Shown: one piece after another, positions 5,587 through 22,962 of the stretch
How positions within the stretch are numbered: position 1 is the first letter of the stretch
Layout of the letters: every line of letters begins with the position of its first letter
NCBI GenBank assembly: GCA_003566635.1
Contig: PXCK01000005.1
Span: forward strand, 1 to 35,046
Length of the DNA: 35,046 nt
From: Balneolia bacterium
GTDB lineage: Bacteria; Bacteroidota; Rhodothermia; Balneolales; Cyclonatronaceae
Direction: 5' to 3'
Position numbers and translations under genes: made by a program
The notes under the pieces: generated by a model
What the model was told of the DNA's origin: nothing
What the model saw: the letters and a program-made list of their open reading frames with translations, nothing else
The model's database searches: none

Positions 5587-7545
5587 ATGAAAAAGACAAG
5601 TACCCCTGACCATATCGTAGCCATAGGCGCATCAGCCGGAGGGTTGGAAGCTCTGCAACAACTACTGAGAAATCTGCCTGAGCTTAAGAAAACGGCCATT
5701 ATTATTGCGCAGCATTTAAGTCCTACGCATAAAAGCCATCTGGTTGACTTGCTAAGTCGTGTAACAAAGCTTACCGTTTTAGAAGCAAAAAATGGGCTTA
5801 AGCTTTCCTCTAATCACATTTATATTACTCCACCGGATGCAGAAATTTCTGTTGAAAAACAAAAAATTATCCTCAAAAAACCGGAATCTTCAATTGGGCC
5901 AAAGCCAAGTGTAGATGTTTTATTCCAATCTATTTCCAAAATTCCGGATATCAAAATTACGGCTATAATTCTATCCGGTACGGGCAAAGATGGGGCAGAA
6001 GGGTTAAAGGTTTTAGATAAGAACAGATCCTTTATAATGGTACAGGATTTGGCATCAGCAAAATACGATGGCATGCCTGCTTCGGCTTTGGATACGGGCT
6101 TGGTTGATACTATTCTGACACCAGATAAGATGGGTGAAGAAATTCTTCGGTTCGTTGAAAATGGATTGACAGCTAAGAAAAATAAGCCTGAGGAAGAGCA
6201 TAAGAATGAGGGGCAATTTGAAAAGATACTTGAAGTTCTGTCTAATCGAACAGGTACAGATTTTACGCATTATAAAAGAGCGACATTACTGCGACGCCTT
6301 GAAAAAAGGATGCAGCAGCTGAAAATAAGAGATATAGATAGTTATCTGTCCTACCTTAAAAAGCATCCGGATGAAGTATCCATCATGTTTAACATGATAC
6401 TGATTGGAGTAACACAGTTTTTCAGAGACAGCGAGGCTTTTGATGCACTTAAGAATGCACTAAAAAAAGTGCTGGACGATAAAGGTGAAGATGAATCCAT
6501 TCGAATTTGGGTTCCTGGTTGTTCTACAGGAGAAGAAGCCTATTCTATTTCAATGATATTGGATATGCTTAGCGCGGAAAAACCGCAACGAAATATCCAG
6601 ATATTTGCTACAGATATAGATGAAAGAGCTATTCAATTTGCCAGATTAGGCAAATACACCAAAGATAGTCTTAAAGGGTTACCTGAAGAAATTATAAGCC
6701 GCTATTTTAAGAAAAATGGGAAATATTACGAAGTAGATAAATTTCTAAGAAGCCGTGTGTTATTCTCCAAGCATGACCTCACCCAACACCCACCATTTTT
6801 ACGATTGGATTTAATTTCTTGTAGAAACCTTCTCATATACTTTGATATCAAATTGCAACAGTATGTGCTACCTGTTTTTCACTATGCTTTAGAGCCGGGT
6901 GGGCTGTTATTTTTGGGTAAATCAGAAACGGTAGGGCAATTTACAGCTCTCTTTTCCACATTAGATTCGGTGAGTAAAATATACAAGCGTAAAGCCGGTA
7001 AAAGTATTCATGAGGTTCGTTTTTCTGCATTTCGCCCTAAAATTTTCAAGCCACAAAGAACTGCGCCTACAGTTTCAGACTACGAAACCACTCTGGAACA
7101 GCAAATTAAAGAGACACTCTTTAAGACCTATGAAAACCCCTTTGTTATTATAGACAGTGAGTATGAAATAAAGGAAGTCTTTGGGGACGTGCGCCTGTTT
7201 GTAAGCCTAAAGCCGGGTAATATTCAGGTGAATCTAATCAATATGGTTAACCCTGAATTGAAAATTGAACTCAGGAGGTTACTCGCTGAAATTAGCCTCA
7301 ATGGGCAGAATGTACGGGGAGAAATCAAAAAGTTTAACCTTTATGAAAAAGATTACTTTGTTCGCTTATCGGTTCGCATAATACCATCAGATGCCGACTC
7401 AAGCGGTCTTTATATGGTAATTTTTGAACAATTAGATATTGAAAAGTTTATTACCAAAAGTGAGTCGCGCTCTACTTCTCATTCCGCTAATGTAGAGATT
7501 CAGGATTTGGAACGAGAGTTAGAGGCTACAAAAGAACAATTGTAA
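5587..7545 (+). CDS. CheB-CheR fusion (methylesterase + methyltransferase + PAS), N-terminal part of an interrupted hybrid sensor kinase
   Basis: CheB motifs GASAGGLEAL, AQHLSPTHKSHL, SGTGKDGAEG; CheR SAM motif VPGCSTGEEAYSISM; ends at in-frame TAA 7543-7545 within ...LEATKEQL*TYIEELETSNEEL. Confidence 0.93.
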   Translation: MKKTSTPDHIVAIGASAGGLEALQQLLRNLPELKKTAIIIAQHLSPTHKSHLVDLLSRVTKLTVLEAKNGLKLSSNHIYITPPDAEISVEKQKIILKKPESSIGPKPSVDVLFQSISKIPDIKITAIILSGTGKDGAEGLKVLDKNRSFIMVQDLASAKYDGMPASALDTGLVDTILTPDKMGEEILRFVENGLTAKKNKPEEEHKNEGQFEKILEVLSNRTGTDFTHYKRATLLRRLEKRMQQLKIRDIDSYLSYLKKHPDEVSIMFNMILIGVTQFFRDSEAFDALKNALKKVLDDKGEDESIRIWVPGCSTGEEAYSISMILDMLSAEKPQRNIQIFATDIDERAIQFARLGKYTKDSLKGLPEEIISRYFKKNGKYYEVDKFLRSRVLFSKHDLTQHPPFLRLDLISCRNLLIYFDIKLQQYVLPVFHYALEPGGLLFLGKSETVGQFTALFSTLDSVSKIYKRKAGKSIHEVRFSAFRPKIFKPQRTAPTVSDYETTLEQQIKETLFKTYENPFVIIDSEYEIKEVFGDVRLFVSLKPGNIQVNLINMVNPELKIELRRLLAEISLNGQNVRGEIKKFNLYEKDYFVRLSVRIIPSDADSSGLYMVIFEQLDIEKFITKSESRSTSHSANVEIQDLERELEATKEQL

Positions 7546-7554
7546 ACTTACATT

Positions 7555-7680
7555 GAAGAACTGGAAACCAGCAATGAAGAATTGCAATCGCTCAATGAAG
7601 AACTGCAAAGTACAAACGAAGAACTCCAAAGCAGCAATGAAGAATTAGAAACTACGAACGAAGAATTACAGAGCAGTAAC
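7555..7680 (+). repeat. 21-bp (heptad) tandem repeat encoding EEL(E/Q)(T/S)xN coiled coil
   Basis: Six consecutive 21-nt units: EELETSN EELQSLN EELQSTN EELQSSN EELETTN EELQSSN. Confidence 0.85.
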
Positions 7681-9996
7681 GAAGAAATTCAAATCACCTA
7701 TGCCGAACTTAAGGAAACCCATGAAGTTCTGGCGAAAAAAGAGGAATTATTAAAAACAGAGCAAGCGTATTCGAGGGCATTGTTATCCAATACGTTACAG
7801 GGATTTGTTTTAATAGATAACAATTATCAGGTATTAGATTATAATAGCAGAGCCAATGAAATTCTTGGAAGAATAAGTAAGCATGCTGTAAGAAAAAGAT
7901 CACAATTTCTTGATTCTGTTCCGGAAAAGGATGTTGCAGAAATGCTTATAACCTTTAAAGAGTGTTTTAAAGGTTCGAAAGAACATGTAGAAGATGTAAT
8001 TCTGCTAAAAACTCTTGATGAACAGGATTTATGGCTATCCTTTAGCGTTAATCCCGTTATAAATTCTAATGGGAAAGTTGTATCACTGGCAATTGGTCTT
8101 TTGGATATTACAAGCCAGAAAATATATCAAAAAGAACTTGAGAGTCTTAATCGAAGACAAGAAACCTTGTTAAATGCTCAAACTCATTATGTATTACGTA
8201 CTGACATGGAAGGGCGGCATACGTATTGGAATCAAATTTTTGAAGAAGATTATGGTTGGTTATATAAAGATGGAAAAATCGATGGTACCGATAGCTTAAT
8301 CTCCATCAGTGGGCACGATCATCATAAGGCATTTAAAGCTGTAGAAGAATGTGTTGCGGAGCCAGGTAAAGTCGTTAAAGTGGAGTTAGATAAACCGGCG
8401 AAGGAAGGTGGTGTAAGAACAACTCTCTGGGAGTTTATGTGTCTTACGGATGAAAACGGGCAGCCATCTGAAATGCAATGCATGGGTATAGAAATTACTT
8501 TACTCAAGGAATTACGAAAGAGTGAAACTCAGTTTAGAACATTATTTGACGATGCTCCCGTCTCCATTTTAGTTCATGACAGAGAGACCGGCGAAATTTT
8601 AGATGCAAATGGAATAGCATGGAAGTCGTATGGCTTTGATAGCCTTAAAGAACTAAAGGAAAATGATTTTTGGCTGGAACCTCCTTACTCCTTTAAAGAG
8701 GCTAAAGAAAAGATGGATGAAGCGGTTCGCGAAGGATATACTCAGTTTGAATGGAAGTCGAAAAATGTAAATGGAGAAGTTTTCTGGGAATTGGTTACCC
8801 TTAGGCCTATTACCATCAATGAAGAAGAGCAAATATTATCGGTTGCGATAGATATAACCGAAAAAAAGGCGATTGAAGAATCTCTTAAGGATAATGAGCT
8901 GCAACTTCTTAACACTAATTCGTTATTAGAATATGTGATTGAACATACCAATAGTGCAGTAGCCATACTTGACGACAAGCTGCATTTTGTTTATGTAAGC
9001 GAACGGTTCAAAAAAGATTTTCAGGTACAAGATGAGACGATAATTGGAAGGCACCACTACGATGTATTCCCGGATTTGCCACAAAAATGGAGAGATGTGC
9101 ATGCACGTGCCTTGAAAGGCGAAGTATTACATGCGGATGCAGATCCATACGTGCGAGATAGTGGAGAAGAATTGTTTACAAGGTGGGAATGTCGCCCATG
9201 GTATAAGTCTGGTGACCAAATCGGAGGCATAGTTTTATACACTGCTGTAATAACAGATGAAATTCTAAGAGAAAGAGAGCTCAAAAAATTATCCACTGCA
9301 GTTACACAAAACCCGGCCAGTGTTGTTATAACAGACATAGATGGCACAATTGAATATGTGAATCCTAAATTTTCTGAATTAACCGGATATACTCAGGAAG
9401 AGGCCATTGGTAAAAATCCACGAATATTAAAATCAGGATTTCAACCTAAAGCTCTCTACGAAAAATTATGGGATACCATATCTAATGGCAAAATTTGGCG
9501 TGGTGAATTACTAAATAAGAAAAAAAATGGAGAATACTACTGGGAATTTGCCACAATGGCGCCCATTTTTGGCAAAGATGGTATCATAAAAAACTATCTG
9601 GCAATAAAACAAGATATAAGCGAACAAAAAAAATCTCAAAAAGAAGCAGAGCGTTTTAAAGCAATAGCAGAAGAATCTGAATTTGGTTTGGCTGTAGCAA
9701 ACCTGCAGGGTGAGATTATTTATATCAATAATTTCTTTGCCCGCATACACGGATTCGAGCCTGAAGCATTGAAAGGGAAGCATTTGTCTATCTTCCACAC
9801 AGAAGAGCAAATGGAGCGGGTGCAAATGTTACATAATCAACTCTTTAATGATGGGTATTACCAACCGGCTGAAGTAGAACATGTGAACCAAGCTGGGCAT
9901 ACATTTTCGATGTTAATGAGTGGGGTCTTACTAAAAGATGAATTTGGTGAACCGGAATTTATAGCTGCTTCAGGAAGAACAACCCGAAATGTATGA
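7582..9996 (+). CDS. Multi-PAS sensor segment, same frame as the CheB-CheR ORF (central part of the interrupted kinase)
   Basis: Several PAS repeats (e.g. ITDIDGTIEYVNPKFSELTGYTQEEAIGKNPRILKSG; VANLQGEIIYINNFFARIHGFEPEALKGK). ORF-track start is TTG inside the coiled coil, so probably not a genuine start. Confidence 0.85.
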   Translation: MQSLNEELQSTNEELQSSNEELETTNEELQSSNEEIQITYAELKETHEVLAKKEELLKTEQAYSRALLSNTLQGFVLIDNNYQVLDYNSRANEILGRISKHAVRKRSQFLDSVPEKDVAEMLITFKECFKGSKEHVEDVILLKTLDEQDLWLSFSVNPVINSNGKVVSLAIGLLDITSQKIYQKELESLNRRQETLLNAQTHYVLRTDMEGRHTYWNQIFEEDYGWLYKDGKIDGTDSLISISGHDHHKAFKAVEECVAEPGKVVKVELDKPAKEGGVRTTLWEFMCLTDENGQPSEMQCMGIEITLLKELRKSETQFRTLFDDAPVSILVHDRETGEILDANGIAWKSYGFDSLKELKENDFWLEPPYSFKEAKEKMDEAVREGYTQFEWKSKNVNGEVFWELVTLRPITINEEEQILSVAIDITEKKAIEESLKDNELQLLNTNSLLEYVIEHTNSAVAILDDKLHFVYVSERFKKDFQVQDETIIGRHHYDVFPDLPQKWRDVHARALKGEVLHADADPYVRDSGEELFTRWECRPWYKSGDQIGGIVLYTAVITDEILRERELKKLSTAVTQNPASVVITDIDGTIEYVNPKFSELTGYTQEEAIGKNPRILKSGFQPKALYEKLWDTISNGKIWRGELLNKKKNGEYYWEFATMAPIFGKDGIIKNYLAIKQDISEQKKSQKEAERFKAIAEESEFGLAVANLQGEIIYINNFFARIHGFEPEALKGKHLSIFHTEEQMERVQMLHNQLFNDGYYQPAEVEHVNQAGHTFSMLMSGVLLKDEFGEPEFIAASGRTTRNV

Positions 9997-10933
9997 AAAT
10001 GAAATAACACAACTTCTCAAAGAATCAGCTATAAAATTAGAAAATACCATACTTGACTTGAACAACGTACTGAAAATCCAGCTTGGTACTAATCTGAAGC
10101 TAACGGATGTTAATGTTTATAAGTTGGTAAATAAAATCATCGATAATAAACAGGATGTAGTACGAAAATCATCTGTTAAGTTGTACAATAACATACCAGA
10201 CGACCTGACTTTAAAAACCGTTAAATCTTATTTAAAAGCCACCCTTATAACACTCATTTCGAATAGCATAAAATATTCAAGTCCGGAAAGAGATTCATGG
10301 GTAAAAATTTCTTCAAATAAAACCAAAGGATACATTGAAATTAGTGTGGAAGACAATGGCATAGGGATTGACCTGGAAAGACATGGTCGCATTATTTTTG
10401 GTATGTATAAAAGATTCCATAATAAAGATTCAAAGGGAATAGGTTTGTATATTAGTAAAAATCAAGTTGAAGCTTTAGGAGGCGAAATAACGGTTGATAG
10501 CGAAGTAGGTAAAGGTTCAATATTTAGAGTTTTGTTGCCCTATGAAAAATTTAAGGAAATATCTCTAATTGAAGATGACAATGTTCAGATTTTTCTCTTG
10601 AAGAAATTTATTGAAAAGACCAATCTGGTAGAAAGTATTACTTCATTTAAAAATGGGAAAGAGGCATTTAATGAAATGAAAGAACGATCGGAAAAGCTGA
10701 GCGCTTATCCTGATTTAATCTTTCTCGATTTAAATATGCCAGTTTGGTCCGGATGGGATTTTTATGATGCTTTCAAAACCTTGCCGAATTATAAAAACGC
10801 GAGGATTATGATACTTACAAGCTCTCTTAGTGAAGAAGATTATCAAACTGCACTAAAGCACGGCTTGGATGATTCTTATATTGTGAAGCCAATCAACTAT
10901 GAGAAATTGGAAAAAACACTAAAAAGTTTGTGA
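9989..10933 (+). CDS. HATPase + C-terminal receiver domain (C-terminal part of a hybrid histidine kinase, H-box not found)
   Basis: N box LISNSIKYSS, G1 EDNGIGID, G2 SKGIGLYISKNQVEALGG; receiver LIEDD...LIFLDLNMP...ILTSS...VKPI. Confidence 0.9.
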   Translation: MYENEITQLLKESAIKLENTILDLNNVLKIQLGTNLKLTDVNVYKLVNKIIDNKQDVVRKSSVKLYNNIPDDLTLKTVKSYLKATLITLISNSIKYSSPERDSWVKISSNKTKGYIEISVEDNGIGIDLERHGRIIFGMYKRFHNKDSKGIGLYISKNQVEALGGEITVDSEVGKGSIFRVLLPYEKFKEISLIEDDNVQIFLLKKFIEKTNLVESITSFKNGKEAFNEMKERSEKLSAYPDLIFLDLNMPVWSGWDFYDAFKTLPNYKNARIMILTSSLSEEDYQTALKHGLDDSYIVKPINYEKLEKTLKSL

Positions 10934-18262: not shown

Positions 18263-18268
18263 TTATAA

Positions 18269-18530
18269 CTAGCCCGGATTATTCACCAAAAAATTTTCTT
18301 GGTAGCAAGGCGAAGGTGGAAAATCAGCGGAAGGGTACCTAAATACCCTGAGTATGACTTTTTCAACTTCAACGCAGCTAGCATGGAATAGCACTTCGTG
18401 GGAATCGCTTCGCTCGGAGTGCAGCATTTTAACCACACTCAAATTTGAGTGAGTGTGATATCTTTCTATATATAATATTTTTAATAGCATAAGATTCAAA
18501 TTTCATGCTTTCGTGAATAATTCGGGCTAG
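18269..18530. mobile_element. TIR-bounded ~262-bp non-coding (MITE-like) element
   Basis: 18-bp terminal inverted repeats ctagcccggattattcac (18269-18286) and gtgaataattcgggctag (18513-18530), 17/18 matching; left end shared with the repeat at 2175. Confidence 0.55.
18273..18328. repeat. Dispersed intergenic repeat, copy B (56 bp identical to 2175-2230)
   Basis: Direct comparison of the two sites. Confidence 0.9.
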
Positions 18531-18559
18531 AATATTGCCAAATAATCCTTGCTAATTCG

Positions 18560-18985
18560 TAACTGGTTGGGGTGTTCCGGTTGTTTTCCGTAGTGATATG
18601 GACGTAATTGGTAGGGATAATCCGAATACTGCGCGTGGTTTAATTTGTTGGGGCGTTTCAGAAAATGTCCATGGTGGTAATTTATATTGGCGACGTTTTT
18701 TTGTAGGGTCATTGGTAATTTATAGGGGTTCTTGTATAGACGTTAATTCATAGGGGCATTGCATTTCGTAAGGACGATTTCGTAGGGACGTTGCATGCAA
18801 CGTCCCTACGAAATTAACGCCTTTACCATGCAACGTCCCCACAATTTGACACCATTACCACCAACGTCCCTACGAATTACACCGATACCACTGTTACCCT
18901 TTACGGCTAACGTCCAATATCGCAACCTCTGTTGCTGCCGTCTACCGATATCTGCAACGTCCCTACAAATTGACACCGTTATCAT
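18560..18985. repeat. Convergent array of degenerate 'caacgtccctacaaattgacacc' repeat units centred on the palindrome
   Basis: Right side: units at 18798, 18831, 18862, 18907 (degenerate), 18955; left side: reverse-complement-type units (gttggggcgttt, gtagggtcattggtaattta, taggggttc, taggggcattg, gtaaggacg). Confidence 0.75.
18777..18814. repeat. Perfect 38-bp palindrome
   Basis: atttcgtagggacgttgca|tgcaacgtccctacgaaat, 19-bp arms with no mismatch. Confidence 0.92.
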
Positions 18986-19169
18986 AATCACACAATGCCA
19001 TCAAAGCTTGATACCTCAAATATCCCTACTAACCACCACGGAAACGGGAATAGGAATCTCACTTAAACACGACCGAATGACCTAAATTTCACCAAAACCA
19101 AATAACCTTTCAACCATAAAGTGCCAAGTAGCAATTACAATTTCGGTACATCAAAATAAAAAAACTGGG

Positions 19170-21571: not shown

Positions 21572-21907
21572 ATGAGTGATACATATTATAACCCCAAAGA
21601 TTTAAGTAAGTTCGGTGAAATCGGTGAATTCGGACAAGAACTGGCAGATAAATTTTTTGACTATTATGGTTCTGTTTTTGCAGAAGGTGAGCTTACGGCC
21701 CGTGAGAAATCATTGATTGCCCTTGCTGTTGCTCATGCTGTTCAATGTCCTTACTGTATTGATGCATATACAGAAGATGCACTTCAAAAAGGATCGAACG
21801 AACTTCAAATGATGGAGGCTGTACACGTTGCTGCTGCTATTCGTGGAGGCGCATCTCTGGTTCATGGCGTACAAATGATGAATAAGGCTAAAAAGATTGG
21901 AATGTAA
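21572..21907 (+). CDS. Arsenosugar biosynthesis-associated peroxidase-like (carboxymuconolactone decarboxylase/AhpD-fold) protein
   Basis: EKSLIALAVAHAVQCPYCIDAYTEDALQKG (CxxC AhpD-fold motif); TAATG overlap with arsS. Confidence 0.88.
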   Translation: MSDTYYNPKDLSKFGEIGEFGQELADKFFDYYGSVFAEGELTAREKSLIALAVAHAVQCPYCIDAYTEDALQKGSNELQMMEAVHVAAAIRGGASLVHGVQMMNKAKKIGM

Positions 21908-22962
21908 TGAGTTTAAAATCCTTACTGGCCAGAGGCAACGAACTTGCAGACCCGGTAAAGCAAATCGAAACCATTAATTTCGGTTCAGAAACGCTGACAA
22001 AACTCCCTAAGTTTGAATCGAAACTAAAGGAATCTGATTTCTACCCTTTAAAGCCTACACAACTTGATATCCTACAGATCAATTTAGGTTATATGTGCAA
22101 CATGACGTGTAAGCATTGTCATGTTGATGCAGGTCCTGACCGAAAAGAAATGATGACTCGTGAAAACCTGGAGCACTGCATTCGGGTAGTGAAGGAAACC
22201 AAAGTTCATACGGTTGATCTAACAGGTGGTGCCCCGGAAATGCATCCTGATTTTCAATGGTTTGTAGAGCAAATTGCTGATCATACTCAAACAATAATTG
22301 TGCGGTCGAACCTAACTATTTTGGTGACGAATCCAAAGTATCGAGCGTTTCCTGAATTTTTCAAAAAATACGGACTTGAGGTAACGTGCTCACTTCCTTT
22401 CTATAACAAATTTACAACCGACCGCCAACGTGGCGAAGGAACTTACGACCGTTCTGTAGAAGCTTTGAAAGTTCTTAATGAGTTAGGTTATGGGAAAGAT
22501 GACAGCGGACTAATCTTAAATTTGGTTTACAATCCGGCAGGTGCTTTTTTGCCGGCTGATCAAGATACTTTAGAGGAAGAGTTTAAAGAAAACTTAAAGG
22601 CCAAGCATGGTATTGAGTTTAACAGTTTATTTACCATCACAAACCTGCCAATAAGCAGATATTTAGAGTTCTTGGTGTTATCCGATAATTTAGATGATTA
22701 CATGAATAAACTTGTGCAGGCCTATAACCCTGTTGCTGCGGAAGGTGTTATGTGTAGGAATACCATATCGGTAGCATGGAATGGCGTATTGTATGATTGC
22801 GATTTCAATCAAATGCTTCACATTCCAATAGATGAGAGCGATTCCGGTCATATTAAAGATTTTAATGCGATGAAACTCTTAAATCGAGCCATCAAAACCA
22901 ATCAGCACTGTTATGGTTGCACTGCCGGAGCAGGTAGTAGTTGTGGAGGGGCAACTGCATGA
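21907..22962 (+). CDS. arsS: Arsenosugar biosynthesis radical SAM protein ArsS
   Basis: Radical SAM CNMTCKHCHVDAGP; C-terminal GVMCRNTISVAWNGVLYDCDFNQML and CYGCTAGAGSSCGG. Confidence 0.93.
   Translation: MSLKSLLARGNELADPVKQIETINFGSETLTKLPKFESKLKESDFYPLKPTQLDILQINLGYMCNMTCKHCHVDAGPDRKEMMTRENLEHCIRVVKETKVHTVDLTGGAPEMHPDFQWFVEQIADHTQTIIVRSNLTILVTNPKYRAFPEFFKKYGLEVTCSLPFYNKFTTDRQRGEGTYDRSVEALKVLNELGYGKDDSGLILNLVYNPAGAFLPADQDTLEEEFKENLKAKHGIEFNSLFTITNLPISRYLEFLVLSDNLDDYMNKLVQAYNPVAAEGVMCRNTISVAWNGVLYDCDFNQMLHIPIDESDSGHIKDFNAMKLLNRAIKTNQHCYGCTAGAGSSCGGATA

Follow-up and report, generated by a model that had tools for sequence, protein, structure and literature searches.

Organization of the CheB-CheR, PAS and kinase genes

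The window, that is, the whole stretch of 35,046 nt analysed here, corresponds to the complete contig C50 of a Balneolia bacterium genome (2.85 Mb, 246 contigs, 87 % complete). Sequences were compared with those from other genomes of the same order, none of them from the genus of this organism, among which the nearest kinase is 47–49 % identical to that of the window. The forward strand contains a signalling locus with three independent lesions within 5.3 kb. Its first ORF (coordinates 5587–7545, 652 aa) codes for a CheB methylesterase, a CheR methyltransferase and the start of a coiled coil, matching the Pfam families CheB_methylest (E-value 1.4e-51), CheR (2.8e-54) and CheR_N (2.2e-17). It shows the features of a CheB-CheR fusion, namely the CheB catalytic motifs (GASAGG, AQHL and TGKDG, all intact) and a CheR domain. 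The CheB domain (5617–6144) is the only one found in the genome. A search of the genome for an MCP signalling domain was negative, leaving this CheB-CheR without a known chemoreceptor substrate.

The first lesion is a TAA (7543–7545) within the NEEL coiled coil (KEQL*TYIEELETSNEEL). As the original prediction held, this stop is real: the reading frame is identical on either side, and the remaining coiled coil and an array of PAS domains (7546–9993, within an ORF spanning 7582–9996) continue in the frame of CheB-CheR. The array is matched in five stretches by TIGR00229 (sensory box, 4.1e-72), and also by PAS_9, PAS_4 and others. All five close CheB-CheR relatives (L052–L056, 45–47 % identity over about 880 aa) have Gln at the position of the TAA, in the contexts LQTYIEE, MQTYIEE or IQSYIEE, and a single C-to-T change converts CAA into the stop. 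These fusion kinases share with the window CheB, CheR, the NEEL coiled coil and the first PAS domain, but they lack the stop in the coiled coil and those read to the kinase end have a different DHp (EIHHRVKNN).

The PAS ORF ends with AASGRTTRNV and a TGA (9994–9996), shortly after an ATG (9989–9991) that opens a third ORF in the +1 frame (9989–10933, 314 aa), as originally described. Sensor and kinase are thus not encoded in one continuous reading frame, given the TAA at 7543 and the +1 shift at 9989. The third ORF contains the second DHp helix and the HATPase_c domain of an HNLR-type histidine kinase but not its H-box helix (9989–10540), and a CheY-like receiver (10559–10933) with its phospho-acceptor Asp in LIFLDLNMP. 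The motifs of both domains had been reported as intact, in agreement with the profile matches (HATPase_c 3.1e-20, with the N, G1 and G2 boxes present; Response_reg 1.1e-17).

The missing H-box and the deletion joint

The DHp of the intact relatives of this kinase in the order follows the pattern FTHIVSHNLRxHTANMLG...EEPE(M/L)(Y/F)ENE...LxETIxxLNxVL. A search with Pfam HisKA (PF00512), suggested with the original prediction, was uninformative: intact HNLR-bearing relatives gave E-values of 0.009–0.29 or no score, always below the cut-off, so the silence of this model in the window proves nothing and it was rejected as a test for the H-box. We used instead a family profile spanning DHp and HATPase, constructed from 11 intact relatives and searched with filters off against the three forward frames of positions 9301–10933. 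The window matched with an E-value of 1.7e-81, although the alignment started only at profile position 55, after the H-box. This supported the claim that no H-box lies between the last PAS domain and helix 2, since none is encoded in any of these reading frames. The kinase ORF contains three histidines (residues 132, 144 and 291), all of them in the HATPase or receiver and none in helix 2. As encoded, the kinase of the window is without an H-box; of the features of a functional HNLR-type histidine kinase, it has HATPase_c with its N, G1 and G2 boxes. An AlphaFold2 model of this ORF alone, run without alignment, had a pLDDT of 39.5 and was set aside.

Homology in the kinase frame starts about eight codons before the ATG at 9989, where the window reads LLQEEQPE|MYENE and the relatives EEPE(M/L)(Y/F)ENE. 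The LLQEEQPE segment starts at about 9965, just after a TAG (9962) in this frame, and matches the relatives where their H-box helix ends (FLEDEEPE, LKLEEPE). At the position of the ATG, relatives read EEPEMF or EDPEMF; because homology begins upstream of it, the starting Met of the ORF is an inherited internal residue. In the PAS frame, homology to three kinases of the order (L024, L026 and L028, from genomes G008, G003 and G007, respectively) extends to FIAAS, ending at about 9972. The two homologies therefore abut or overlap within positions 9965–9988, without added bases, and this identifies the second lesion as a deletion joint. The overlap, GCTTCAGGAAGAA, can be read as either parent sequence, making a deletion at microhomology plausible.

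The PAS arrays of these three HNLR kinases include the PAS type that comes last in the window (38–45 % identity), and their helix 2 plus HATPase is similar (45–48 % identity). Unlike the window, they retain an H-box (FTHIVSHNLRxHTANM) and additional PAS domains and, where a regulator is kept, it is a separate gene, that of G008 being itself frameshifted. Aligning full-length homologues, as had been proposed for sizing the deletion, gave a distance from this PAS to the helix 2 boundary of ca. 563 aa in L024, 820 aa in L028 and 831 aa in L026, occupied by further PAS domains, a linker and the H-box helix (HNLR). From this spacing, the deletion was probably of about 1.7–2.5 kb and removed several PAS domains along with the H-box helix, although an ancestor with as few domains as L033 could bring it down to about 150 nt. 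The proposed loss of the H-box helix was therefore borne out by both profile and joint, but it is probably part of a deletion larger than one helix.

Fusion of the response regulator to the kinase

The receiver had been taken as an intrinsic domain of the kinase, but in most relatives that keep it, it is a separate overlapping gene. The regulator occupies its own frame in L027, L028, L016, L017, L018 and L025, and an overlapping single-domain receiver gene commonly follows the HNLR kinases of the order. In L027 and L028, the end of the kinase gene overlaps the start of the regulator gene (TATGAAAAAAAT...), reading LPYEKN in the kinase frame and MKKI in that of the regulator. The corresponding sequence of the window, TATGAAAAATTTAAG (10541–10555), is one base shorter in its A run, and the kinase frame continues into the receiver. 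This third lesion, which was absent from the original prediction, indicates that the apparent hybrid kinase of the window is a fusion of two genes. Single-base changes can fuse an overlapping receiver gene to the preceding HNLR kinase. The regulator downstream of L024, the closest kinase homologue (about 7260–7675, minus strand, in G008), is itself frameshifted at an A run, reading SEDDQKRLHYLV* in one frame and going on as ALLGLEHNYLIKPIDF in another, through either decay or a sequencing error.

Probable gene decay and its alternatives

In kinases of this kind, autophosphorylation of the DHp histidine is under the control of the PAS array, and the phosphate passes from this histidine to the regulator. 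We consider that the locus is a young pseudogene, derived from a CheB-CheR-PAS(n)-histidine kinase and its response regulator, with a probability of about 0.77. The ancestor would be a pair of overlapping genes, a single long CheB-CheR-coiled coil-PAS(n)-DHp(HNLR)-HATPase kinase and, downstream of it, a single-domain response regulator. It would have acquired the nonsense mutation (C to T) of the coiled coil, the out-of-frame deletion of the size estimated above, perhaps between short similar sequences, in which the H-box helix went together with distal PAS domains, and the loss of one base in the A run that joined the regulator to the kinase remnant; we infer from the sequence both this order of events and microhomology as the cause of the deletion. 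The phosphorelay would be unable to work as encoded, pointing to loss of function, while the cell may still produce CheB-CheR, the PAS array and the HATPase-receiver, each as an orphan fragment.

For each broken boundary, several full-length homologues without the lesion have the intact sequence, and the locus combines several inactivating lesions (nonsense, frame-changing deletion and -1 in a homopolymer), amid neighbouring genes that, where checked, look complete. No orthologue with the full architecture was found in the order, only partial ones, and the putative complete ancestor was pieced together from the CheB-CheR relatives and the PAS-kinase relatives; a scan of the genome contigs for homologues retrieved one distant locus, which was not used. 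Bacterial pseudogenes commonly carry short indels and premature stops (PMC2916853). Like those described by Kuo and Ochman (2010), the gene in the window, here read from one genome, has a premature stop and indels that shift the frame, and full-length counterparts of it exist elsewhere. Several observations were counted against decay: no catalytic motif of CheB, HATPase or receiver is damaged; the three products could plausibly each be a complete domain or array; a usable ATG, preceded by AGGA, opens the kinase ORF; and there is no close relative. The original prediction left open gene decay or a rewired ATPase/receiver protein. Decay is the option that gained support, the rewired protein finding nothing positive in its favour: among the relatives read in the order, the ATPase/receiver architecture never occurs as a complete gene.

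Homologues with E-values of at most 1e-50 occur in three of 129 genomes of the order, including that of the window, and from this patchy presence the gene appears accessory and probably dispensable. The branch of the window kinase (0.42, against a median of 0.61) shows that its sequence is not accelerated, suggesting that constraint lasted until recently, as expected for recent decay. The genome also contains an intact paralogue on contig C191, with 1951 open codons and its own regulator, which is the only other kinase with an HNLR-type H-box.

An assembly or sequencing artefact, with the contig misjoined at about 9970 by collapse of a PAS-rich stretch and/or base errors in a gene that is intact in the organism, is unlikely. 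The assembly is fragmented, PAS arrays are repetitive at the protein level, and the third lesion sits in a homopolymer, errors in which are a known source of false pseudogenes (PMC2916853). However, the first lesion is a substitution and the second a junction without a long repeat, neither of them a typical assembly error, and the missing piece is absent from the other contigs. Within the gene, no DNA repeat is long enough to cause a collapse, the best being 85 nt at 74 % in the coiled coil, and repeats were discarded as its cause. The background of lesions, taken from the window neighbours and the inspected kinase matches of this genome, also argues against error: the neighbouring proteins checked (ApaG, an ABC transporter set, RecA, thioredoxin reductase, ArsS and others) look full-length, their alignments covering most of the respective family profiles, and the stops within the other kinase matches are natural gene ends. 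Elsewhere in the window, about 900 bases (18263–19169) have no convincing ORF and no Rfam match, and positions 21572–22962 contain an arsenosugar biosynthesis pair, a peroxidase-like protein and the radical SAM protein ArsS.

Split kinases, in which the ATPase and the phospho-acceptor are separate proteins, are known from Mycobacterium tuberculosis. By this precedent, CheB-CheR, the PAS-array protein and the HATPase-receiver could be separate partners, the HATPase phosphorylating the DHp of another kinase or the receiver being an orphan regulator. The intact motifs, the short kinase branch and the ATGTATGA overlap, of a kind seen in translational coupling, agree with such a system, which we nevertheless consider quite improbable. 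With only half of its DHp, the protein cannot form the usual dimer bundle; the genome (87 % complete) yielded no stand-alone H-box or DHp partner of HNLR type, nor any second H-box fragment, the C191 kinase alone carrying one; no relative shows the split; and each of the three boundaries looks as if a longer ancestor had been mutated there. The literature on split kinases and pseudokinases offered nothing decisive. A three-protein system derived from a split sensor kinase, whose ATPase-receiver lacks its own phospho-acceptor His and uses the DHp of a partner, is a reading to which we give very little credence.

Pfam HisKA is not usable for calling H-box loss in the HNLR kinase family, and caution also applies to annotation. 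Automatic annotation would call three proteins at this locus (a CheB-CheR, a PAS protein and a hybrid kinase/receiver), of which the third would resemble a new, H-box-less hybrid kinase when it is actually what a deletion left of the kinase, fused to the gene next to it. The locus most likely represents an ordinary gene in decay and not a new type of signalling protein.
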